This document shows positions 1-64,000 of a DNA stretch of 64,000 bases, piece by piece. Source of the DNA: Helicostylum pulchrum (taxonomy: Eukaryota; Mucoromycota; Mucoromycetes; Mucorales; Mucoraceae). The translations under genes were made by a program, and so were the position numbers. The notes below the pieces were generated by a model that saw only the letters and a list, made by a program, of their open reading frames with translations, searched no databases and had not been told where the DNA came from. The first letter of the stretch is position 1. Each line of letters starts with the position of its first letter. The DNA lies in contig JAIXMO010000005.1 in assembly GCA_025677825.1 (NCBI GenBank), positions 186,001 through 250,000 on the forward strand. The letters run 5' to 3'.

Positions 1-1288
1 TATATAGAGCATCAATCCATCACACGGCTTCAAAGAGCATCCATTTCGGATACATCTGCACGCCCAACAGTAGTGCCTGAGATATAAAAAAATGCTAGTA
101 GGTCGAAGTAAAACTAGTATACACGTACCGTTATTGAAAAAAAAAAGGATAAAGAAGTAAAGAAAGAGTGGGAAAAATCCTTTTTTTTTTCAAGTAAAAA
201 TTGAAAAAAAGACTAGACCACGAATATGGAACGCTAATATCTATTGGACTTGAAAAATAAACAAATCATGCAAAAAGAGAAAGTAGTACAAATTAGACCT
301 ACTTTCTTTTTACTTGTAAAAAAAAATACTTTCGCTTACTCTTGTATTCTCATATCTTGTGTTAATGTGGGTGAGAGATATGTATCAAGCAGGTATATAA
401 CGATGGAGAGAGTAACAAAAAAAAAAAGAAGCTGTAAAATCATTTTTAACAAAGTAAACAAAACGTGCAAAAAATAACTAGTACAAATTAAGGAACTTTC
501 CTTTTCTTTATTCACTTATAAACCATACTCTGGTACGAGATAAGGCAATACTAGAGTAAGATTTAAAAAAAGAGCAAGCGAAAGTATTTGCAATGATTTT
601 TTTTTTGTGATTTTTTTTTTCATGATTTTTTTTTCGTGATTTTTTTGACAAACTTGATGAAATCATACATATTCAAGGGAATAGTAATCCAGAGTAGATA
701 AAAAAAACGCCATGAAACACTTTTCTCGCTTCATGTGTAGCGCCTTTTTTTAATACTTATTTTGTCCAAAACTTGTTTTCGATATTTCCTATTTAAGTGA
801 AAAAAAATCGTTATACCCAGCAACTACTATGTCTACAATAAATTTATTTCATTCTTTTAAACTTAGTATAACAACTATCATAATCTATTGAAAAAAAAAT
901 GTATAACATCTTATGTAAGTATATAGAAACAGAAAGTGGGAGTGAAGTTTGATTACTTCGCGCGTCACAAATAAATTCCTGCATTATGCAAACGCGTATA
1001 TCTTAACAGTGTCCGTTAAAGTAGATGGAAGTAGTTTAATATGTCACCATAGTCAGCGCTGATAACGAGGTAAAGGTAAAGGTAAAAAAAAACCATTCAT
1101 ATGCTCCAAATTTTGAGGCGGTAAGAAAACAATAATATGATTTTTTTAAAAAAAATTGCTGCGGAAATTGGCGTGATGAGATCATCCCTCTTTTTTTTCT
1201 TTTTTTTTGGTATTTAAGAACTTTTTTCTTCTTTGTTTTTTTCTTTCTTTTCTTTTTCTTTACTATTCATAAATTATATTTACGCTCA

Positions 1289-1928
1289 ATGTTGCTTATA
1301 AACCTTGTCTACCTCTTCCTCTGCTCTTCCTTTTTCCCGCTGTTGAACAACAGTTCAACGGCTCTTTATTACGTTCGTTGTAAGTATTTTTTTTTCTTCT
1401 AGAAATAAATGATAACCATGAACATTTTATTATTTTGTAGCTTCCTGGTTCTCCTCCAGTTTAAAAGTATTCTTTACTTTTGTACCAAATTTCGCCTCCG
1501 CCCCTGTTTGGGAAGAAACCTTTCCCCAAAAGGTTTGTAAACCCTTCACCCCGAAGGGTTTGTTTCAAAATGTGTTCTCTCCTGGTGTCTGCTTTTTGGC
1601 TGAAGAGCCAAAAGGCCTAATGGTTGTCCTCCCTCCTGCCTCTCGTGGTGTCTGCTTTTTGGCTCTTCAGCCAAAAAGCTTAATGGTTGTTCCTCCTCCT
1701 GCCTCTCCTTTCCCCTCCTTCTGTCCATTTGACCCCCTCCCCTTCCTTTTTACGCTCATCTCCAGAGCAAAGGCTTTCGCTTCAACAGCGAAAGTTTTGT
1801 ACCAAAAGCTGCAAGTAGAAGGGCTTAACCCCAACTACTTGCGGTTTGTTCTCAACATGGTCTTCGGGTTCATCGCCGTCTATACATTCAACATGTATCA
1901 TAAGAAAATAATAAAATTATTTGTTTAA
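1289..1928 (+). CDS. R gene A, copy 1: hairpin-studded putative secreted/membrane protein
   Basis: Spliced model: exon 1 1289-1379, intron 1380-1440 (gtaagt..ttgtag), exon 2 1441-1928; 192 residues. The first ~28 residues (MLLINLVYLFLCSSFFPLL) look like a signal peptide or signal anchor. A hydrophobic stretch lies near the C-terminus (LRFVLNMVFGFIAVY). The middle has two 21-residue repeats beginning GVCFLA and rich in Pro/Val. Support for real coding: the diverged copy at 43504 keeps an exon 1 of exactly 91 nt, the same splice sites and an aligned peptide (FVPNFAS..VWE.TFP.KVCKP) with many third-position changes. Six inverted repeats lie inside the coding sequence (separate entry). No known family recognised; function unknown. 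Mobile-element accessory protein or secreted protein are both open. Confidence 0.6.
1516..1842 (+). repeat. Array of six short hairpins inside R gene A (copy 1)
   Basis: Inverted repeats read directly. A 1516-1536: aaaccttt/aaaggttt, 5-nt loop. B 1539-1561: aaacccttc/gaagggttt, loop acccc. C 1594-1613: ttttggct/agccaaaa, loop gaag. D 1654-1679: gctttttggct/agccaaaaagc, loop cttc. E 1774-1794: ctttcgct/agcgaaag, loop tcaac. F 1811-1842: gcaagtag/ctacttgc enclosing a possible inner ggg/ccc pair. All lie in the gene A reading frame. Equivalent hairpins occur in copy 2 at 23623-23949. Copy 3 has B, C, E and F between 63715 and 63946. Copy 4 has A, B, C, E and F between 43893 and 44212. Confidence 0.9.
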
Positions 1929-1994
1929 ACATATATTGTCTTTTTTTTTTTATAGTATACACTATATAAAAAGATATTCTAACAGTGAATATAA

Positions 1995-2174
1995 ATGGAA
2001 ATAGAAAGTGGGGGAAAGTCCTATTATCTCTCGTGCCCCAAAGATAACGGAAGTCATACGCCTGAAAAGCTGTTTTATAAGTATAAGAAAAAAGGGAGGT
2101 CAAGTCGCTCCGTATTTGTTTACTCTAATCGATCAATCAAATTTGATTTTAATCAGACTGTTACGGGTTTGTAA
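1995..2174 (+). CDS. Possible 59-aa open frame in the R spacer
   Basis: An ATG at 1995 opens 59 codons ending with taa at 2172-2174, starting MEIESGGKSYYLSCPKD and ending NQTVTGL. It is basic in the middle (KYKKKGRSSRS). In copy 2 a 2-nt shorter A-run shifts the frame, and in copy 3 an extra G shifts it near the start, so the frame is intact only here. The DNA is well conserved between copies, but indels are not in multiples of three. It may be a decayed small gene or simply the gene A 3' untranslated region. Confidence 0.2.
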   Translation: MEIESGGKSYYLSCPKDNGSHTPEKLFYKYKKKGRSSRSVFVYSNRSIKFDFNQTVTGL

Positions 2175-2740
2175 AACACCTTACCCACCTATCGGGTTCC
2201 TTTTTTTTTTTTTATATCTACAGCCCATCATGGTGGATATATATGGAAACTTTTGATATTCATGCGAATAGGAAAGTGTAGGGTGGCGTAGGCGCTAAAA
2301 GTAAAAAAAAAAAGAACATCGCGTTTTGACAGAAAGGTTTGTTGACAGGTTAGGGAGACTTGACACCTATTGACGATCCATTTGTGTACAAGTGTTGATT
2401 ATAACGAACCTCTCTCTCTCTCTCTCTTTATTAAAAAAACAAAGAAGAAGAACCATTACACGAAAGGATTTTTTTTAAAAATTGCTGCGAAACTTTAAAA
2501 TTTACTTGTAATGATTGTGTAAAAAATGAAAAAAAATCCTTTAGTGTGATAGAGACGTTAAAATGAGGAGTGGTTTTTTTTTTCACACTGTAACGGATTT
2601 GAGTTTTATAATAATCTCCATTTCTCTTATTCAAAAAAAAAAATTATGAAGGGCTATTTTTTTTTTATTTCCTCTTCTTCTCTGTCTCAAACACACACAC
2701 ACACTCACTCTCACTGCCTCCATTTTTTTCGGCTTAAAGT

Positions 2741-3878
2741 ATGACTGATTATCAAAACCGAGCTGAAAGACGCAGTGTACAACTCGTCGAGCTGCGCAAA
2801 ATTCGAACTGAATATAAACAAGAAATGAAGGCCTTCCGTAGCAAGTATTTTAACTACAACACAAAGAAGTTCAGAAAGACTTTATTTTACCAACACTTAA
2901 AGCCAGCAAGTCAAATGAACACTGCTGTCGATAGTCCGGCTACTGGTACATATCAAGAAGAAGGTCCCTCTCCTCTAACTGATACTACTATGGCTTTACA
3001 TAACTACGAATGTACTCCTATCACTGATGTATAGCAAGAAGAAGGCAACATTCGCGTAATTTACGATCGTACCAATCAAACTGTTGAAAATACCCACGCT
3101 ACTTATATCACTGAAGAGGCTTTCTCTATTCAAACCGATAAGAAAGAATGTGGTGTCGTAGAAGCTTCTAGTTCTGGAACTGATACTGTAACCGTTATGG
3201 CCGATGAAGAAGTTAAAGTCATTGCTAAGGACGTTAATAGTACCCAAGATGTCAACAGTTTCAAATTGAAGTGGAATATATTACCTTTTATTTCATTACA
3301 CATGTTTGATTGCTCCGATGCAGCGGTTAATGCAGCAGACCGAGAAAATACAAAGCTAGGTAAGAACAAGAAGGGTACAGAGGAACCTCTTGATGAAAAA
3401 GATGATGACGTTCGTAAAAATGATGAGGCCGTACAACAACAAGAAGAAGATAATGAAATGCTTCTATTATCAGAAAAGAAGATAGACTCGAGTTTCTGTG
3501 AAAAGTCTATGAAAGAAGTACCATGGATGGTAACACCATCAGCTAGTATCAAGGACGTTATTCGTGGAGAGACAGCTTCTTTGTCAATTACACCACCGCA
3601 AAGTATCACTGGCTTTGTTTTAACGGGACTTTATCTGTAAAGCCTAGTAGTATGGGTAAAGTGAAAAAGTCTTCTGCTATTACAGCTATTCGAGAAGTGG
3701 CCTTTTCCCCTGTTGAAGGGGTTAAAAAGAAAAGATTACGAAGTTTAAAGGTAAGCTTTTATTTGAAAAGAATGAACCGCGCGGTAAACTAATAAGCTTT
3801 TTTTAAAAAAATATATAGAAGAAGACAGGAACAGTTGTTCCAAAGATCAAAACAGTTTGGAAAAGAGTATTCAACTAA
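2741..3878 (+). pseudogene. R gene B, copy 1: unknown basic/acidic protein, interrupted
   Basis: An ATG at 2741 after a CT-rich leader opens a frame starting MTDYQNRAERRSVQLVELRK. The N-terminal ~60 residues are strongly basic (NRAERR, KKFRK) and the middle is acidic. Conserved blocks follow: NSFKLKWNILPFISLHMFDC near 3260, SFCEKSMKEVPWMVTPS near 3500, and TPPQSITGFV near 3590. An in-frame tag at 3032-3034 ends the first 97 codons, but the same frame continues to 3640. After GFV a 1-nt loss relative to copy 3 shifts the frame. The last part then uses a spliced end: exon to 3750, intron 3751-3818, exon 3819-3878 (ending VPKIKTVWKRVFN). No family recognised. The 97-residue truncated product could still be made. 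Confidence 0.55.
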
Positions 3879-4076
3879 TCTATACCTATATTGCTTTATT
3901 CCCTTTTTTCTTTTTTTTACTTAGTTATAATAAAATCAGCACTAGAAAAAAACTAGTTTCTTTTTTCTTATGCTTTCTACTCCCTTTGTTCTTCTTTTTA
4001 GTCCGTATTATGATACATGAATGTAGACCTACATATCCTGGAATTATTAAACTGAAGATCGATATAGATAGTCTCG

Positions 4077-4265
4077 GCTACAAAATAAACCAAATCACTT
4101 AGTGGTATTGTTACACATTCAACTCTACGTCATTTTAAACCTACGCTGAGTTACCATTATGCGCTTTCGCGTGACTCTTTATACAATATAGCATCATAAA
4201 GAGCAAAAAAAAAGCCAAGCTTTTTTTCTTTTTTCTTCCTCGTTTATTATTTCTTAGCATTACAA
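4077..4265. other. Spacer between R copy 1 and the WASP gene
   Basis: No open frame or repeat seen. It holds the presumed promoter and leader of the downstream gene: a pyrimidine-rich tract about 40 bp long immediately precedes the start codon, as at several genes in this window. Confidence 0.4.
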
Positions 4266-20739: not shown

Positions 20740-22326
20740 CACATCTAGTCCCGTCCGATCAGTTTCCATCACGAATCCTAGCTACTGCACGGTAAATGCC
20801 CAGACTACCTTACTTTGAGCTGAGAACAGCCTCTAAATATCGCAGAAAACGACTGAGAAGATTGAAGCTTACGGCGAAAAACTATGTTCACGCAAGCACA
20901 CAGAGTATCTCATAGTGATTGCACCTCGCCAGGATTACACACCTACCACCACCCCAAGCTCGCGAGACACACGACCCAGATAAAGTCCTATACTAGATCT
21001 GACGACCTAGCCTTATTATGCAAGTTTATGCTTCCGTACCGATGACTCCTTTGTACAGAAGGGGAAATCAACCCACCATGGCTTCACGAAAAGACACCTA
21101 GATGCAGACAATCTTTTTTCATCTTGATTTCACCTTCAGATCTGGAACCACCTGTTTCCACTTACGATTTCTTGACATAGTTTTAGAAAAATATAATTAC
21201 CAATCCTCACCAAGGATCAGGGAACACTGTCACCGAGATTTACGACCAACCCAAGTTCTTTCTTACTGATCCAGTGTCGGCTATAAGAGGAAGGGCAAGA
21301 ATACCAGCTTTTTTTTTTCTTTTTCTTTCTTTTTTTTTCTCCATCAAAATCTATCTGTCAAAATTATGTATCAAAATATTCTCTATCGGTCTAAGTGACC
21401 AGCACTGTATGTTTCTATTCTATAGTTCAAAAAAATTGTTTGAAGAGGCAAAAAAGATATAAGAGATGGCAGAGATACAAGAGATAGAATACATACAAAA
21501 GATGACATATATACACTATATACAGGAAGTACAAGAGATGGTAGAGATACAACATATGCAAGAGATACCAGAGATAGAATATATACAAAAGATAAAATAT
21601 ATACAACTATATACAAGAGATACCAGAGATGTCAGAGATATAAGAGATGACAAAGATACAATATATACAGCAGATACATCATATATAAGAGATGTCTGAG
21701 ATACAAGAGATACAAGAGATACAAGAGATACAAGAGATACAAGAGATACAAGAGATACAAGAGATATATAAGGAGAAACCGATAGAGAATAAGAAGTAGA
21801 CAGAAGAGATAAGGGAGAGCTTTTTTTTTTGGGCCGGTATTCTTTAGAATCCTCAAATAGAAGACACTTTCACAGCAATAGGAACTTGAGAAGGAAGTAA
21901 TTCAAGGATCAAGCAAACCCATCACCAAGGATCAGATCAAGTAATTATAGTTAAAAAATCAGAGGTCAAGAAATCAGGGAAGCAAGCGGAACCATCACAT
22001 CCAGTGAAACCAAGATTAGAGAGAAATCCCACACCTAGGAGCTTTCCGATTCACCACAGCAGGAAGATCACTATATTAGTACGCCAGAGCCACCAGTACA
22101 TCCACATAAACAAGTATTAAAAGGCGTCAGTTATCAGGAGTCGTACAAGACCTATCTGAATAGCATGCCTCTTATTTACTTGAGGAGGTGTGTACATAAC
22201 ACCAAAAAGACCTTTGGTGCCATACCTGGAAGACCTCGAAGGTGTAACCAGTTAAAAATGCTGCAATGGACTTCGTGCATACTTATGACGATGCACCCCC
22301 TACCAACCAGCCTAGAAGACATACGG
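20740..22326. other. Richer-GC relic with decayed open frames
   Basis: Base composition is visibly richer in G+C than the flanks. Degenerate open frames are present. The best starts near 22060 (DSPQQEDHYISTPEPPVHPH) and runs through RRCVHNTKKTFGAIPGRPRR to about 22260. After a one-base frame change it continues as MDFVHTYDDAPPTNQPRRH into the left part of R copy 2. No conserved domain was recognised. It is likely an old mobile element or dead gene; the same sequence is entered by R copy 1 exactly at the window's left edge, so it may extend there too. Confidence 0.4.
21463..21775 (+). repeat. Imperfect 9-bp minisatellite (gatacaaga)
   Basis: Degenerate copies of gatacaaga/gata..aga fill ~21463-21700, then a nearly perfect run of about eight units lies at ~21700-21765. 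It has open frames in several phases simply because 9 is a multiple of 3; these are not genes. Confidence 0.85.
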
Positions 22327-23395
22327 TATATAGAGCATCAATCCATCACACGGCTTCAAAGAGCACCCGTTTCGGATACATCTGCACCCCCAACAAGAGT
22401 ACCTGGGATAAAAATATGTTAGTAGGTCGAAGTAAAACTAGTATACACGTACCGTTATTGAAAAGAAAAGGATAAAGAAGCACAGAAAGAGTGGGATTTT
22501 TTTTTTTTTTTTTTTAATAAAATACGGTATTGTTTGTAAACAAATCGTGCAAAAAGAAAAAAAGAAAAGGAAAATAACTAGTACAAATTAAGGAAATTTC
22601 CTTTTCCTTATTCACTCTTAATTCTTTGTCTGACTCTGCGTAGCATCAGTGTAATCCATACTCTGGTACAAGATAAGGCAATACTAGAGTAAGATTAAAA
22701 AAAAGAGCAAGCGAAAGTATTTGCAGTTCTTTTTTCGTGATTTTTTTTTGACAAACTTGATGAAATCGTAGATATTCAAGAGATTAGTAATCCAGAGTAG
22801 TAAAAAAAAAACACCATGAAACACTTTTCTCGCTTCATGTGTAGCGCCTTTTTTTTAATACTTATTTTGTCCAAAACTTGTTTTCGGTATTTCCTATTTA
22901 AGTAAAAAAAAATCGTTATACCCAGCAACTACTATGTCTACAATAAATTTATTTCATTCTTTTAAACTTAGTATAACAACTATCATAATCTATTGAAAAA
23001 AAAATGTATAACATCTTATGTAAGTATATAGAAACAGAAAGTGGGAGTGAAGTTTGATTACTTCGCACGTCACAAATAAATTCCTGCATTATGCAAACGC
23101 GTATATCTTAACAGTGTCCGTTAAAGTAAATGGAAGTAGTTTAATATGTCACCATAGTCAGCGCTGATAACGAGGTAAAGGTAAAGGTAAAAAAAAAACC
23201 ATTCATATGCTCCAAATTTTGAGGCGGTAAGAAAACAATAATATGATTTTTTTAAAAAAAATTGCTGCGGAAATTGGCGTAATGAGATCATCTCTCTTTT
23301 TTTTCTTTTTTTTTTGGTATTTAAGAACTTTTTTCTTCTTTGTTTTTTTCTTTCTTTTCTTTTTCTTTATTATTCATAAATTATATTTACGCTCA

Positions 23396-24035
23396 ATGTT
23401 GCTTATAAACCTTGTCTACCTCTTCCTCTGCTCTTCCTTTTTCCCGCTGTTGAGCAACAGTTCAACGGCTCTTTATTACGTTCGTTGTAAGTATTTTTTT
23501 TTCTTCTAGAAATAAATGATAACCATGAACATTTTATTATTTTGTAGCTTCCTGGTTCTCCTCCAGTTTAAAAGTATTCTTTACTTTTGTACCAAATTTC
23601 GCCTCCGCCCCTGTTTGGGAAGAAACCTTTCCCCAAAAGGTTTGTAAACCCTTCACCCCGAAGGGTTTGTTTCAAAATGTGTTCTCTCCTGGTGTCTGCT
23701 TTTTGGCTGAAGAGCCAAAAGGCCTAATGGTTGTCCTCCCTCCTGCCTCTCGTGGTGTCTGCTTTTTGGCTCTTCAGCCAAAAAGCTTAATGGTTGTTCC
23801 TCCTCCTGCCTCTCCTTTCCCCTCCTTCTGTCCATTTGACCCCCTCCCCTTCCTTTTTACGCTCATCTCCAGAGCAAAGGCTTTCGCTTCAACAGCGAAA
23901 GTTTTGTACCAAAAGCTGCAAGTAGAAGGGCTTAACCCCAACTACTTGCGGTTTGTTCTCAACATGGCCTTCGGGTTCGTCGCCGTCTATACATTCAACA
24001 TGTACCATAAGAAAATAATAAAATTAGTTGTTTAA
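23396..24035 (+). CDS. R gene A, copy 2: hairpin-studded putative secreted/membrane protein
   Basis: Same structure as copy 1: exon 1 23396-23486 (91 nt), intron 23487-23547, exon 2 23548-24035; 192 residues, no stop or frameshift. In the C-terminal 122 residues it differs from copy 1 at only three positions (V to A, I to V and F to V near the C-terminus); one further change lies in exon 1. All six hairpins are present at 23623-23949, including the loop-inverted pair C/D. No conserved family domain seen. Confidence 0.6.
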
Positions 24036-24504
24036 ACATATATTGTCTTTTTTTTTTTATAATATACACTATATAAAAAGATATTCTAACAGTGAATATA
24101 AATGGAAATAGAAAGTGGGGGAAAGTCCTATTATCTCTCGTGCCCCAAAGATAACGGAAGTCATACGCCTGAAAAGCTGTTTTATAAGTATAAAAAAAGG
24201 GAGGTCAAGTCGCTCCGTATTTGTTTACTTTAATCGATCAATCAAATTTGATTTTAATCAGACTGTTACGGGTTTGTAACACCTTACCCACCTATCGGGT
24301 TCCATTTTTTTTTTATATCTACAGCCTATCATTACTTTAAATGGTGAGAATTTTTGATATTCATGCAAATAGGTAAGTGTAGGGCGCTAAAAGCAAAAAA
24401 AAAAAAAAAAGAACATCGCATTTTGACAGAAAGGTTTGTTGACAAGTTAGGGGGACTTGACACCTATTGACGATCCATTTGTGTACAAGTATTGATTATA
24501 ACGA

Positions 24505-24536
<32 letters not shown>

Positions 24537-24819
24537 TTATTAAAAAAAACAAAAAAGAAGAACCATCACACCAAAGGATTTTTTTTTAAAAATATTGCTG
24601 CGAAATTTTAAAAAAAAACCCTTTAGTGTGATAGAGACGTTAAAATGAGGAGTGGTTTTTTTTTCACACTGTAACGGATTTGAGTTTTATAATAATCTCC
24701 ATTTCTCTTATTCAAAAAAAAATTATGAAGGGCTATTTTTTTTTTATTTCCTCTTCTTCTCTGTCTCAAACACACACACACACTCACTCTCACTGCCTCC
24801 ATTTTTTTCGGCTTAAAGT

Positions 24820-26086
24820 ATGACTGATTATCAAAACCGAGCTGAAAGACGCAGTGTACAACTCGTCGAGCTGCGCAAAACCCGAACTAAATATAAACAA
24901 GAAATGAAGGCCTTCCGTAGCAAGTATTTTAACTACAACACAAAGAAGTTCAGAAAGACTTTATTTTACCAACACTTAAAGCCAGCAAGTCAAATGAACA
25001 CTGCTGTCGATAGTCCGGCTACTGGTACATATCAAGAAGAAGGTCCCTCTCCTCTAACTGATACTACTATGGCTTTACATAACTACGAATGTACTCCTAT
25101 CACTGATGTATAGCAAGAAGAAGGCAACATTCGCGTAATTTACGATCGTACCAATCAAACTGTTGAAAATACCCACGCTACTGATATCACTGAAGAGGCT
25201 TTCTCTATTCAAACCGATAAGAAAGAATGTGATGTCGTAGAAGCTTCTAGTTCTGGAACTGATACTGTAACCGTTATGGCTGATGAAGAAGTTAAAGTCA
25301 TTGCTAAGGACGTTAATAGTACCCAAGATGTCAACAGTTTCAAATTGAAGTGGAATATATTACCTTTTATTTCATTACACATGTTTGATTGCTTCGATGC
25401 AGCGGTTAATGCAGCAGACCGAGAAAATACAAAGCTAGGTACGCTTTGGGTACACCTTGGGTACACCTTGGGTACACTCTTTTCTAATTGGTACACCTTG
25501 GGTAAACTCTTTTCTAATTGGGTACACCTTGGGTACGCTTTGGGTACGCTTTGGGTACACCTTGGGTAAGAACAAGAAGGGTACAGAGGAACCTCTTGAT
25601 GAAAAAGGTGATGACGTTCGTAAAGATGATGAGGCCGTACAACAACAAGAAGATGATGATGAAATGTTTCTATTATCAGAAAAGAAGATAGACTCGAGTT
25701 TCTGTGAAAAGTCTATGAAAGAAGTACCATGGATGGTAACACCATCAGCTAGTATCAAGGACGTTATTCGTGAAGAGACAGCTTCTTTGTCAATTACACC
25801 ACCGCAAAGTATCACTGGCTTTGTTTTAACGGGACTTTATCTGTAAAGCCTAGTAGTATGGGTAAAGTGGAAAAGTCTACTGCTATTACAGCTATTCGAG
25901 AAGTGACCTTTTCCCCTGTTGAAGGGATTAAAAAGAAAATATTACGAAGTTTAAAGGTAGGCTTTCATTTGAAAAGAATGAACTGCGCGGTAAACTAATA
26001 ATCTTTTTTTTAAAAAAAATATATAGAAGAAGACAGGAACAGTTGTTCCAAAGATCAAAACAGTTTGGAAAAGAGTATTCAACTAA
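24820..26086 (+). pseudogene. R gene B, copy 2: interrupted, with minisatellite insertion
   Basis: Starts MTDYQNRAERRSVQ as in copy 1, with two changes in the first 97 codons (I to T, E to K in RKTRTKYKQE). The same in-frame tag is present at 25111-25113. The frame continues to ~25440, where 127 bp of tandem gggtacacctt-like sequence is inserted; 127 is not a multiple of three, so the frame shifts. Downstream blocks (SFCEKSMKEVPWMVTPS; TPPQSITGFV) then lie in another frame. The shared 1-nt loss after GFV is also present. The spliced end (donor gtaggc near 25957, acceptor near 26026) leads to KTVWKRVFN and a stop at 26084-26086. Confidence 0.55.
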
Positions 26087-26326
26087 TCTATTTCCCAAAC
26101 TAAAACTTTAAAGATTATTCAACTAATTTATACCTATATTGCTTTATTCCCTTTTTTCTTTTTTTTTTACTTAGTTATAATAAAATCAGCACTAGAAAAA
26201 AACTAGTTTCTTTTTTCTTATGCTTTCTACTCCCTTTGTTCTTCTTTTTAGTCCGTATTATGATACATGAATGTAGACCTACATATCCTGGAATTATTAA
26301 ACTGAAGATCGATATAGATAGTCTCG

Positions 26327-26880
26327 ACAATAATTAATACCATTTATGCCCGTGCTTAGTGAGGTGAAAGGGTCATCTTTGCAACTATCACCATCGACAC
26401 ACTTATATTTACAATGTGAGATATTTTATCTGGTAAATGCGGCAAAGGCAATAAACTTATTTATGATTTGACCAACCAGAATGGTAAAGAAAAAAAAGAC
26501 GTGCAACAAATAAAATGATTACAAACAGCTAAAAGCGTATCGTCTAGATAAACCTGTGGTGACCAAAGGAAATGTATAAGAGAAATTTATCAATGTGATT
26601 TTGATATTGCAGGTTGACACGATTAAAAAAAACAAAGAAAATATGCATGAAAAGAGAGGGTTTTATTTATTGTACAAATATTTTTTTGCGTAACGTGACA
26701 TAGTATAAAGATATAGGTAAGAAAAAAGACAGAAAAAATAATTAGCAAGATAAATATAGTTTTTTTTTGTTTTTTTTTTGTTGGTTGTTGTTGTACAATA
26801 AAAGGAAAAAAAAGGGGGGGGGGTATTATTAGATAGTAAAAAAGTAGTGGTGTATAATAAAAAAAAAAGAGGAAAACGAT
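26327..26880. other. Intergenic region with homopolymers
   Basis: No gene seen. Contains a run of about nine G at 26815-26823 flanked by A- and T-runs, and the presumed 3' end of Pik1. Confidence 0.4.
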
Positions 26881-35822: not shown

Positions 35823-35983
35823 ACGGTGGATTTCTCCAGAATTTCTTCGGTCCCCCGCTTTACAACCACTATTACCACCATTCTGTTTAAGGGTGGTAAT
35901 AGTGGTTGTAAAGCGGGGACCGAAGGAATTCTGGAGAAATCCTCCCTACCTTAAATCAGGTCACCCCTAAATAGAGCTGCTAC
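35807..35983. repeat. Large palindrome / foldback element
   Basis: The left arm 35828-35879 (ggatttctccagaattt...) and the right arm 35891-35942 (...aattctggagaaatcc) are inverted copies of about 52 nt. They differ by one G indel and one A/G change, and are separated by ~12 nt (attctgtttaag plus edges). Outside them is a second, shorter inverted pair: gtagcggctctattta (35807-35822) and taaatagagctgctac (35968-35983). The outer motif is the border of repeat X. Could form a very stable cruciform or hairpin. Confidence 0.9.
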
Positions 35984-43261: not shown

Positions 43262-44290
43262 AACTGTGTCCGTTAAAATAAATATAAAGAGGGAAGTAGT
43301 TTAATGTGTCGCCACAGTAAACGCGGATAACAAGGTTAAGAAAAATTATTCATGTGCTCCAAATTTTGAAACAGTAATATTTGCCAAAAAAAACCAGTAT
43401 GTGATGAGGTCATCTCTCCTTTTTTTGGTATTTAAGAACTGGTTTTTTTTCTGTTTTTTTTTTTCATCTTTTTCTTTATATTCATAATATATAATAGCTC
43501 TCAATGTTAGCTATGAACCTTGTATTTCTCTTCTTAGGCTCGTCCTTAATATCGCTGTTCGGTAACAGGGCAAGTTCTCTGTTTCCTGCATGTCGTAAGT
43601 AACTGTTTTTTTCTCTGTATTTTTTCTTTTCTTTTTCTTTATTATTCATAACACATAATAGCTCTCGATGCTAGTTATACACCTTTTCCCCCTCTTCTTA
43701 GGTTAGCCCTTTCTCTCGCCGTTCAGTAACAGGGCAATTTCTATGTTTCCTGCATGTCGTAAGTAACTCTTTTTTTCCTAAAGATATGGTAATCATGAAC
43801 ATTTTATTGTTTTGTAGCCGGCTGGTACTCCTCCGGTTTGAAAAGCTTTTTTCCGTTTGTACCAAATTTCGCGTCTCCTCACGTTTGGGAGAAAACTTTC
43901 CCTGAAAAGGTTTGTAAACCCTTGACCCCCAAGGGTTTGTTACAAGAAGTACTCGCTCCGGGTATTTGTCTTTTGGCTGACGAGCCAAAAGGCCTTATGG
44001 CTGTTCCCCCTCCTGTCTGTCCCATCTCTTCTCGCCCTCCAACTCCTTCGCCACCTCCACCGCTGCCGCCCGTAGTTTATTACGTATCACTTTTTTCCCG
44101 CCTTTGCCTATCCGGCTGTCTCCCTCTCTCCTTTTCACTGAAACTTTCGCTTCAACAGCGGAGGTTTCATCCAAAAAACTGCAAGTAGAAGGGTTTAACC
44201 CCAGCTACTTGCGGTTTGTAACAAGTATGGACTTCGAATTCCTAACAGCTCTCATATTCAACACATGTTACTTAATAAAATTTTAAATTT
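43262..44290 (+). repeat. Diverged partial copy of repeat R (copy 4)
   Basis: Begins at tgtccgttaaa.. (matching ~1010 in copy 1) and ends shortly after gene A. Clearly older than copies 1-3: many substitutions, yet splice sites, exon 1 length and hairpins A, B, C, E and F are retained (43893-44212). Gene B is absent. Confidence 0.8.
43504..44286 (+). pseudogene. R gene A, copy 4: diverged, frameshifted, exon 1 tandemly duplicated
   Basis: Exon 1 is 43504-43594 (91 nt; MLAMNLVFLFLGSSLISL, signal-like) with donor gtaagt. A second, decayed copy of exon 1 plus donor follows at ~43665-43765 and contains an in-frame tag. Exon 2 begins at 43818 after ttttgtag and reads PGWYSSGLKSFFPFVPNFAS.., KPLTPKGLLQE, CLLADEPKGLM, as in copy 1. 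A frame change lies near 44080-44130. The conserved end (TFASTAEVSSKKLQVEGFNP..) is then in another frame and stops at 44284-44286. The 63-bp duplicated unit (hairpin D) is absent, so one hairpin of this type appears ancestral. Confidence 0.55.
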
Positions 44291-60750: not shown

Positions 60751-61134
60751 AGTCCTTGTTATTTTTCTCAAAGGGAAAAAAAAAATTTGTATGTGTGTCA
60801 AGAAAAAAAAGACAGGGATAAAAAAATTGGTTGGAGCGCCGGTTCAAAGAAAAAGATGATCCCCTCACGAAAACACTGGCATAAATGGGATTAATTTGTT
60901 GTCGAGACTATTTGCATCGATCTTCAGCTTACTAACTCCAGGATATGTGGGCGTCTACATACATGTATCATAATACGGACTAAAAAAAAGAAAAAGGGAG
61001 TAGAAAGCATAAGAAAAATAAAACTAGTTTTTTTTTTCTGGTGCTGATTTTATTAACTATAAGAAAAAAGGGCATAAAGCAATATAATTTTAGATTAGTT
61101 GAATAATCTTTATAAGTTTTGTTTGGGAAATAGA

Positions 61135-62896
61135 TTAGTTGAATAATCTTTTCCAAACTGTTTTAAACTTGGGAACAACTGTTCCTGTCTTCTTCTACAT
61201 ATTTTTTTTAAAAAAAAAAGCTTATTAGTTTACCGCGCGGTTCATTCTTTTCAAATGAAAGCTTACCTTTAAATTTCGTAATCTTTTCCTTTTAACCCCT
61301 TCAACGGGGGAAAAGGTCACTTCTCTAAAGGCTGTAACAGCCGCAGACTCTTTCACTCTACTCGTAATACTAGGCTGTACCGACAAAGTCCTGTTGAATA
61401 CAAAGCCAGTGATACTTTGCGGTGGGGTAACCAACAAAGAAGTTTATCTTCACAAATTACACCCATGATACTACATGGTGAAGTTACCATCCATGCTAAT
61501 TCCTTTATAGATTTTTCACAGAAGCTGTGGTTTATCTTCTTTTCTAATACGAGCGACCTTTCATCTTTTTCTTGTTGCTGTCCGGCTTCATCGTATTTTT
61601 GGACGTCACCTTCATTTTCGCCAAGAAGCTCTTCTGTGTCCTTCTTGTCCTCACCTACCTCTGTATTCTCTCCGCCTGCCGCATTACCCAACACATTGAC
61701 AAATGCTTGAATTTCACAAGGTGTATTCAAGGAGCAATCAAACATATGCAATGAAATAACAGGTAAGAGATTCCATCTCAATTTGAAACTATTGACAGCT
61801 TGTGTAATACCAGCTTCCTTAACAACGATTCCAGCTTCTTCTTGGTCAGTCATAATGGTAAAAGTACCGGTTTTAAAACTAGGAGCTTCTTTAGCATCAC
61901 ATTCTTCCTTATCAGTAGAGATATTAACATCTTTGGAACCAAGTGTGTCCTCAGTTACACTTTCTTCAGAGACATCACTTACTTGTACGGATGTGAAAGG
62001 TGCACAATCCTTATCTTCAACGGATGTATCATCAGAATAATCTACTACTTCTTGAGAGCAGTCGATATTACGAGCGGTGGCAATCTCAATAACAGCAGTA
62101 AGAGGTCTAGTACTGCTTGATCGGTACGATCATAAACTCCGCGAATGTGGTCATCTTCAGGAGCGCATTCATAGTTATAAAAAGCCACAGCGGTATCGGC
62201 TGGAGAGGAGGGACCTTCTCCTTGACGTGTACAAGTAACAGTAGTGTCCGTCTGACCACTAGTAAAAATATCAGAGGAGGATTCTCCAGAGATATAAGTT
62301 TCAGTAGTGGTATCCTGAGAGTTACAGTCAAAAGAGGCATCTTCTGCTACTTTGACACTTGCTTGCTTCCAGTTGCAGTAAAATACAGTCTTTCCAAACT
62401 TCTTTGCATTGTAGTCAAGACAACGGAAAGCTTTCATTTTTCGCTTGTACTCCATTCAGGTTTTGCGCAGTTCGGCGCGCTGTATACCGCGTCTTGCAGC
62501 TCGATTCTGATATTCAGTCACGATAGTACCAGTTTCAGAACTAGGAGCTTCTGTAGCGTCATATTCTTCTTTACCAGCGGCATCTTCGGAGCCAAGTGTG
62601 TCCGCAGCAATACTTTATTCTCTTGTTTCTTCAGAGACGTCACTTACTTGCATGGGCGTATTGGTTTGAGAGGAGGGACCTTCTTCTTAATTTGTCCCAG
62701 TAACTGGGCTATCAATAACAGCGTTTATTTGACTTACTTGTTCCAAGCTGCGGTAAAATACGGTCTTGTTAAACTTCTTTGCGTTATAGTCAAGACAACT
62801 AAAGGCCTCCATTTGTTGTTTGTACTCGGTTCGGATTTTTCGCAGCTCGACGCATTGGAAACAGCGTCTTTCAGCTCGGTTTTTATATTCGGTCAT
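61135..62896 (-). pseudogene. R gene B, copy 3: internally duplicated and frameshifted
   Basis: Starts MTDYKNRAERRCFQCVELRK (62896). After a stop at 62687-62689 and a second broken stretch, a second, similar start of the domain appears at ~62524 (TEYQNRAARRGIQRAELRKT, a stop, then MEYKRKMKAFRC). The N-terminal unit is therefore tandemly duplicated, period about 375 bp. It lacks the tag shared by copies 1 and 2: the corresponding region reads NYECAPEDDHIRGVYDRTDQ. The conserved blocks follow (NSFKLRWNLLPVISLHMFDC; SFCEKSIKELAWMV), then a frame change near 61437 before TPPQSITGFVFNRTLSV. The spliced end gives FKTVWKRLFN with stop at 61137-61135. Confidence 0.55.
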
Positions 62897-63628
62897 AATT
62901 TAAGTCAATAGTGAGAGAGTGAGTGTGTGTGTTTGTGTGTGTATGTGAAAAAAATCGAAAGTGAAGAAGAGGAAAGAAAAACAAAACAAAATAGCTCTTT
63001 ATAAAAAAAATTTTGACGAATAAGAAAAATAGAAATTATTGTAAAACTCAAATCTGTCACTGTGGAAAAAAATGACTCCTCATTTTAAAAAACACTAACG
63101 TCTCTACGGTTCTTCTTTTTAATAAAAAGAGAGATTCGTTATAATTAACACCTGTATAAAAATGGATCGCCAATAGGTGTCAAGTCTCCCTACCCTGTCA
63201 ACAAACCATTCTGTCAAAACGCGATGTCCTTTTTTTTTTACTTTTAGCGCCTGCGTCACCCTACACTTACCTATTCGCATGAATATCAAAAGTTTCCATA
63301 TATGTCCACCATATATATCCACCATTAAAAGTAATGATAGGCTGTAGATATAAAAAAAAATGGAACCCGATAGGTGGGTAAGGTGTTACAAACCCGTAAC
63401 AGTTTGATCAAAATCAAATTTGATTGATCGATTAGAGTAAATAAATACGGAGCGACTTGATCTCCCTTTTTTTTTGTGTATAAAACAGCTTTTCAGGCGT
63501 ATGACTTCCGTTATCTTTGGGACACGAGAGATAATAGGACTTTCCCCCCACTTTCTATTTCCATTTATATTCACTGTTAAAATGACTTTTTATATAGTGT
63601 AATATATAAAAAAAAAGACAATATATGT

Positions 63629-64000
63629 TTAAACAAATAATTTTATTATTTTCTTATGATACATGTTGAATGTATGGACGGCGATGAACCCGAAGGCTAT
63701 GTTAAGAACAAACCGCAAGTAGTTGGGGTTAAGCCCTTCTACTTGCAGCTTTTGGTACAAAACTTTCGCTGTTGAAGCGAAAGCCTTTGCTCTGGAGATG
63801 AGCGTAAAAAGGGGTGGGAGGGGGTCAAACGGACAGAAAAGAGAGGCAGCAGGAGGAGGAACCATAAGGCCTTTTGGCTCGTCAGCCAAAAGACAAACAC
63901 TCGGAGCGAATGCTTCTTGGAACAAACCCTTGGGAGTCAAGGGTTTACAGACAAAGGAGGGAAAAAGAGAGACGGGAGGAGAAACGACCATTAAGCCTTT
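63629..64000 (-). CDS. R gene A, copy 3 (3' part only)
   Basis: The C-terminal ~120 residues of gene A, ending HKKIIKLFV with stop at 63629. Open to at least 63991. Includes PLTPKGLFQEAFAPS, CLLADEPKGLM, SRAKAFASTAKVLYQKLQ and the hydrophobic FVLNIAFGFIAVHT. Hairpins F (63715-63746), E (63763-63783), C (63872-63891) and B (63924-63946) are intact. The N-terminal exon is outside the window. Confidence 0.5.
   Translation of the reverse strand, partial: KGLMVVSPPVSLFPSFVCKPLTPKGLFQEAFAPSVCLLADEPKGLMVPPPAASLFCPFDPLPPLFTLISRAKAFASTAKVLYQKLQVEGLNPNYLRFVLNIAFGFIAVHTFNMYHKKIIKLFV

Follow-up and report, generated by a model that had tools for sequence, protein, structure and literature searches.

Matched hairpin arms in exon 2 of a nuclear gene family of Helicostylum pulchrum, possibly maintained by template switching in DNA

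The 64 kb of DNA analyzed here (hereafter the window) sit on a contig of 984,125 bases (C114) in the 32.2 Mb genome of Helicostylum pulchrum, a mould of the order Mucorales, and this contig also bears genes such as one for a tRNA synthetase. At positions 1289-1928 of the window, on the forward strand, lies a gene (R01) whose protein is identical to H. pulchrum EDC94DRAFT_596663 (P0003); the gene model, which yields that same protein, comprises exon 1 (1289-1379; MLLINLVYLFLCSSFF..., with a hydrophobic start), an intron of 61 nt (1380-1440; GTAAGT...TTTTGTAG), the position of which is common to the 12 other copies modelled there (lengths of 59-83 nt), and exon 2 (1441-1928), the bearer of a row of hairpins. 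As located by a hairpin scan and stem alignment, all on the forward strand, these are hairpin A (1516-1536; 8 bp, loop CCCCA, peptide ETFPQKV), B (1539-1561; 9 bp, loop ACCCC, peptide KPFTPKGL), C1 (1591-1616; 11 bp including one G.U, loop GAAG, peptide CFLAEEPKG), C2 (1654-1679; a perfect 11 bp, loop CTTC, peptide CFLALQPKS), which is C1 with its centre inverted, E (1770-1798; 12 bp including two G.U, spacer TCAAC, peptide KAFASTAKVL) and F (1811-1842; an outer stem of 8 bp plus an inner GGG/CCC, LQVEGLNPNYLR). The hairpin array within a coding sequence that had been claimed from the letters of this DNA (hereafter the sequence-only reading) is, with all six of these present, real, and so is its observation that the stems encode conserved peptides, such as KPFTPKGL in B of R01.

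The window holds further copies of the gene, namely, R02 (23396-24035, forward strand), which is 97-99% like R01 and has six hairpins as in R01; R12 (43504-44212, forward strand), with hairpins A, B, C, E and F and a frame shifted ahead of E; and the 3' part of R04 (63586-64000, reverse strand), which continues beyond the window end and shows hairpins F, E, C and B. Pairing in R12 is as described in the sequence-only reading, with hairpin A holding through one G.U and hairpin E (44139-44169, forward strand, outside the family reading frame) forming 12 bp, or 13 with one more pair, two of them G.U; E of R01 likewise reaches 12 bp, its two G.U being at different places from those of R12. A tandem 164-bp repeat (43433-43777) doubles exon 1 of R12, the second exon 1 having an early stop. 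The family copies are embedded in larger repeated units (1-4091, 22327-26367 and 60860-63879, the third of which is inverted) that also hold a neighbour gene (about 2740-3780, start MTDYQNRAERRS), and the neighbour gene that accompanies copy 2 contains an inserted GGGTACACCTTGGGTACAC minisatellite (25438-25568), which is missing from the matching site (about 3362) of copy 1.

DNA and protein searches of the H. pulchrum genome returned 14 hairpin-bearing loci: R01, R02 and R12 within the window, R04 spanning its end, R05 and R06 (identical, inverted) and R08-R11 also on C114, and R03 (C87), R07 (C79), the partial R13 (C83) and the divergent R15 (C101) on other contigs; a family remnant was found on C110 and a 3' match on C80. 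The remnant (L071, about 1900-2000) has exon 1 fused to the gene's 3' end and was apparently made by a deletion between GGCTCGT/GGTTCGT repeats. Disruptions affect R03, R09, R10, R11 and R13, a frameshift puts the last third of R12 out of frame, and hairpins are broken or missing in the decayed copies R03, R11 and R13 (R11 is without B, and E was found in neither R11 nor R13). Pairwise dN/dS among nine copies, with the values of R12 and R10 disturbed by the out-of-frame tail of the former and the partial state of the latter, is 0.27-0.54, the exception being R01/R02 (1.20, the two being five changes apart), which places the protein under moderate purifying selection, and R15 shows dS above 1 versus each of the eight other copies compared. 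Of 5.8 billion proteins searched with a profile, 11 matched, seven of them from Helicostylum (including the window's own) and four from Thamnidium elegans (P0008-P0011); protein searches requiring shared five-residue words found no relatives outside these two genera, and the family proteins have no Pfam match above the cut-off (P0006 has one chance-level match). The family is, in short, small and fast-changing.

With hairpins defined by perfect arms of at least 8 bp, a loop of 3-16 and at least two G or C per arm, exon 2 of R01 contains six perfect ones, whereas 200 dinucleotide shuffles averaged 0.09 and never exceeded 1. The whole window has 35 hairpins that fit this definition, 19 of which fall inside the four copies of the family (the totals for three shuffled windows were 9, 18 and 15). 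Over 13 loci, which are not independent (R05 and R06 are identical, and R01 and R02 nearly so), exon 2 bears 54 hairpins in 7,280 nt (7.42 per kb) and the remainder 11 in 41,094 nt (0.27 per kb). Shuffling synonymous codons with the peptide and codon counts kept (1000 times each for R01, R04, R05, R07, R08 and R15) gave means of 0.18-0.30 hairpins and maxima of 2 or 3, versus 3-6 observed in these six copies, R15 being the lowest (3 observed versus a maximum of 2); the fold energy z versus such shuffles is -3.7 to -7.9. As synonymous shuffles give far fewer of them, the hairpins are a property of the nucleic acid and not merely of the peptide, and something acting on DNA or RNA itself, not on the protein alone, seems to keep their arms matched. 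At the F place of R15, a hairpin with a different stem is predicted (GTCAGGG/CCCTGAC within AACATCG/CGATGTT), as is another long one at the end of that copy. The window also contains a perfect inverted repeat outside the family (35853-35918; 27-bp arms, 12-nt loop), an imperfect 9-bp AGATACAAG repeat in about 35 copies (21455-21766) and a 320-bp repeat pair (20155-20474/42952-43253, 87% identity).

Stem B reads AAACCCTTC/GAAGGGTTT in the copies at 1539 and 23646 and AAACCCTTG/CAAGGGTTT in those at 43916 and 63924, and the paired change of its innermost pair, C:G to G:C, on which the sequence-only reading had dwelt, is indeed seen across the four window copies. It is, however, a weak example: R01/R02 and R07/R08 probably share it through gene conversion, a third state exists (an unpaired G.A in R04a, R09, R10a and R13), and the C-G state of R01, R02, R07 and R08 may be the older one because R15 has it too. 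The B change is probably a single event within the cluster, and gene conversion may have spread it. In the wider family, two-sided change was found at three pairs of B, two of E, one of A and none of C, and covariation was tested on 6-10 distinct rows per stem. For stem B (8 distinct rows, R11 being excluded for want of B; 95.8% of cells paired), the observed covariation score was reached by 1/500 shuffles, the number of two-sided pairs by 6/500 and the pair types by 234/500, and two of the three two-sided pairs (C-G to T-A and T-A to C-G) come from R15 alone; for stem E (6 rows, R11 and R13 excluded; 92.3% paired, with the pair at columns 7 and 29 taking the forms G-C, G-U, A-U and U-A), the corresponding figures were 5/500, 76/500 and 14/500, and no slide reached the covariation score of either stem. 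A and C (10 rows each) showed no excess covariation, their scores being reached by 310/500 and 251/500 shuffles, respectively, and the 91.8% pairing of C overstates that of the family as a whole, the broken or truncated C units of R03 (both) and R13 (its single one) being absent from the alignment. Paired change of the kind described in the sequence-only reading is real in the wider family too, with A and C remaining at the shuffled level.

Compared with the other copies, R15 shows three two-sided changes in B and one in E, several of which alter amino acids. Measured by random substitution, a rough yardstick because R05 substitutes for an ancestor that it is not and because the two E tests have a history in common, the six stem differences between B of R05 and of R15, amounting to three two-sided changes with 9/9 Watson-Crick pairs, were matched in 220/400,000 trials, the nine differences between E of R05 and of R12, with 13/13 pairs despite the shifted frame, in 197/400,000, and the four between E of R05 and of R15, again with 13/13 pairs, in 2,103/400,000. 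Some of the paired changes replace amino acids in both arms (KPLTPKGL to KSLSPRDL); C.A and G.A are among the states found at changing pairs; and the three two-sided changes of R15 sit on a long branch. R01b has a perfect 11-bp stem, with T.G at the same pair in R01a and R08. As regards Thamnidium, for which peptides and not DNA were compared, the B peptides could code 8-9 of 9 pairs in 4/4 proteins and the E peptides 13, 13 and 11 of 13 pairs in the three proteins retaining E, values that other windows of these proteins, which were searched with a smaller number of restarts, matched in 0-5 of 138-177 cases; K/D in R15 versus N/E in P0008 and P0009 is, at the peptide level, a co-change that leaves one E pair possible.

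The spacers changed in a different manner. The centre of hairpin C is GGC-CGAAGA-GCC in R07 and GGC-TCTTCG-GCC in its sister R08, i.e., an exact reverse complement between unchanged arms; the C spacer is TCTTCA in R01b/R02b versus TGAAGA in R01a/R02a, and the E spacer is GTTGA in R09 versus TCAAC in the 11 other copies with E. The C inversions turn AEE into ALR or ALQ, and the E inversion turns STA into VEA. As R01b resembles R08 downstream, the C inversion may be a single, shared event, and there were, consequently, at least two inversions overall (two or three). Spacer inversion is a DNA event, the signature of template switching between the arms of an inverted repeat, and these inversions, together with the divergent R15, are the strongest evidence of all; neither had been noticed in the sequence-only reading.

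The reading favoured here, to which we would give roughly an even chance, is that of a nuclear protein-coding family whose exon 2 inherits a row of short palindromes, the match between their arms being maintained chiefly in the DNA. As DNA is replicated or repaired, the nascent strand would switch to the opposite arm, thereby copying one arm onto the other, by which single mutations would become paired, and would sometimes flip the spacer; the variants would then spread through the clustered copies by gene conversion and unequal exchange. We infer that the paired changes arose by template switching, with no need for selection on structure. Such switching is favoured by the exactness with which spacers are inverted between arms that stayed where they were, by the perfect stem of R01b and the non-wobble intermediates, and by B of R15 and E of R12 staying fully paired after many differences. 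Speaking against it are the small number of inversions, the concentration of hairpins in exon 2, which would not be expected if a process blind to coding acted on shared flanks, the low synonymous divergence in the stems (see below), which template switching alone does not predict, and the results for A and C, which lack excess covariation, and for E, whose two-sided count is found in 76/500 shuffles. A DNA mechanism and selection on structure may also both act.

Possible, with prospects somewhat below even, is that the hairpins are functional structures of the mRNA or of single-strand DNA, selection on the predicted fold leaving compensatory change and the flips being a side effect. The restriction of hairpins chiefly to exon 2, the fold energies of the six copies, the predicted R15 hairpin at the F place with its different stem sequence and the Thamnidium elegans peptides still able to code B and E pairs are all in line with this, as is the synonymous divergence, which is 0.128 in stem codons versus 0.311 outside (10 pairs of the five copies R01, R04, R05, R07 and R08, leaving out near-duplicates, decayed copies, R12 and R15), a shifted stem mask having given a value as low in 7/220 cases. 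Non-synonymous divergence is, however, lower in the stems too (0.063 vs. 0.120), owing to which the stem region may simply be conserved or converted; moreover, G.U and A.C pair states are nearly equal in number (11 vs. 8 in hairpins A, B, C and E), the covariation of A and C is not above that of shuffles, and intermediates are frequently non-wobble mismatches. The sequence-only reading had named the right two options, selection on RNA structure or self-correction of palindromes, and built on a paired change that is real, but the wobble pairs to which it appealed do not tell the two apart, as G.U is not clearly above A.C. A related reading, in which the family would, in two mould genera, have been selected for its coding hairpins so strongly that they persist in place with changed sequence at an amino-acid cost, the mRNA or DNA fold having a function of its own and the flips (ADE/AEE to ALQ/ALR and STA to VEA) providing switchable protein variants, strikes us as less likely than not.

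Improbable is an origin of all the similarity and paired changes in gene conversion alone, i.e., in copying between clustered copies: R01 and R02 do hold an R07-like block from B to C1, with exon 1 and the intron grouping with R03/R05/R06, but such copying is unable to originate paired changes or inverted spacers, and R15 lies on another contig, with the dS values given above. Even less credible are mobile palindromic elements inserted in frame. Rickettsia palindromic elements are transposable, dispersed palindromes lying in frame in coding sequence, and the mitochondrial double-hairpin elements of fungi are short hairpins dispersed in mtDNA; the Helicostylum hairpins share with the former their in-frame position in coding sequence, but were found in one family only, and with the latter their shortness and fungal host, but are nuclear and coding. 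A and B are alike, with a tandem period of 23 nt, and the form AAA...TTTGT is common to A, B and E; the genome-wide pattern search, which covered B, E and C with up to 2, 2 and 3 mismatches (strongly diverged elements would escape it), nevertheless placed 17/17 matches to B, 12/12 to E and 19/19 to C in this one family of a 32 Mb genome. The mobile-element reading was rejected on this lack of dispersal, and the likeness to Rickettsia and mitochondrial elements drawn in the sequence-only reading fails on the same point. The absence of B in R11, furthermore, resembles a deletion between GGTTTGT repeats, and no clean empty site in an intact copy was seen among the Helicostylum loci read; the Thamnidium protein P0010 has five residues missing at A. 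That the hairpins are a by-product of peptide, codon bias or chance has next to no probability: the stems do encode conserved, hairpin-capable peptides, but synonymous shuffles average 0.18-0.30 hairpins where 3-6 are observed, and dinucleotide shuffles 0.09 where six are.

A standing problem is that paired changes in stems are commonly taken as a sign of selection on RNA, although template switching in DNA produces an identical pattern; the two causes should be separable here because paired arms and inverted spacers co-occur in a family of many copies. Palindromes in coding DNA are, in addition, able to change several amino acids together. For the coding genes of yeast, one study describes template switching between the arms of short inverted repeats, with arm homogenisation and spacer inversion (PMC8604942), and the Helicostylum family resembles what is reported there in having short palindromes in nuclear coding DNA with arms that appear to have been made identical and spacer flips that alter amino acids (the yeast spacers being of 2-5 bp and the flips recurrent). 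The yeast palindromes are spread across many genes of one species, whereas the Helicostylum family has four to six palindromes per gene, with two-sided arm changes, kept between paralogues of dS above 1. Nematomorpha mitochondrial genes contain coding palindromes that are kept matched, for which arm conversion was proposed (PMC6649704), and there, as here, matched inverted repeats lie in coding sequence with the protein under selection; the same study names Rickettsia palindromic elements. The Nematomorpha repeats described in it are mitochondrial and up to 284 bp long, nearly all long ones being perfect, unlike the Helicostylum stems, which are nuclear, measure 8-13 bp and include mismatches and G.U. 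Long, perfect mitochondrial repeats of the Nematomorpha type were accordingly discarded as a description of this family, given stems of 8-13 bp on a 984-kb contig bearing a tRNA synthetase gene. Among the titles listed in literature searches, with subscription journals mostly outside them, none concerned hairpins in this gene or conserved coding hairpins lined up in a nuclear family, although the mechanism itself is described for yeast coding genes (PMC8604942). What appears to be new is the row of conserved coding hairpins in one nuclear family, and what it shares with known systems is the inversion of spacers and, perhaps, the homogenisation of arms.
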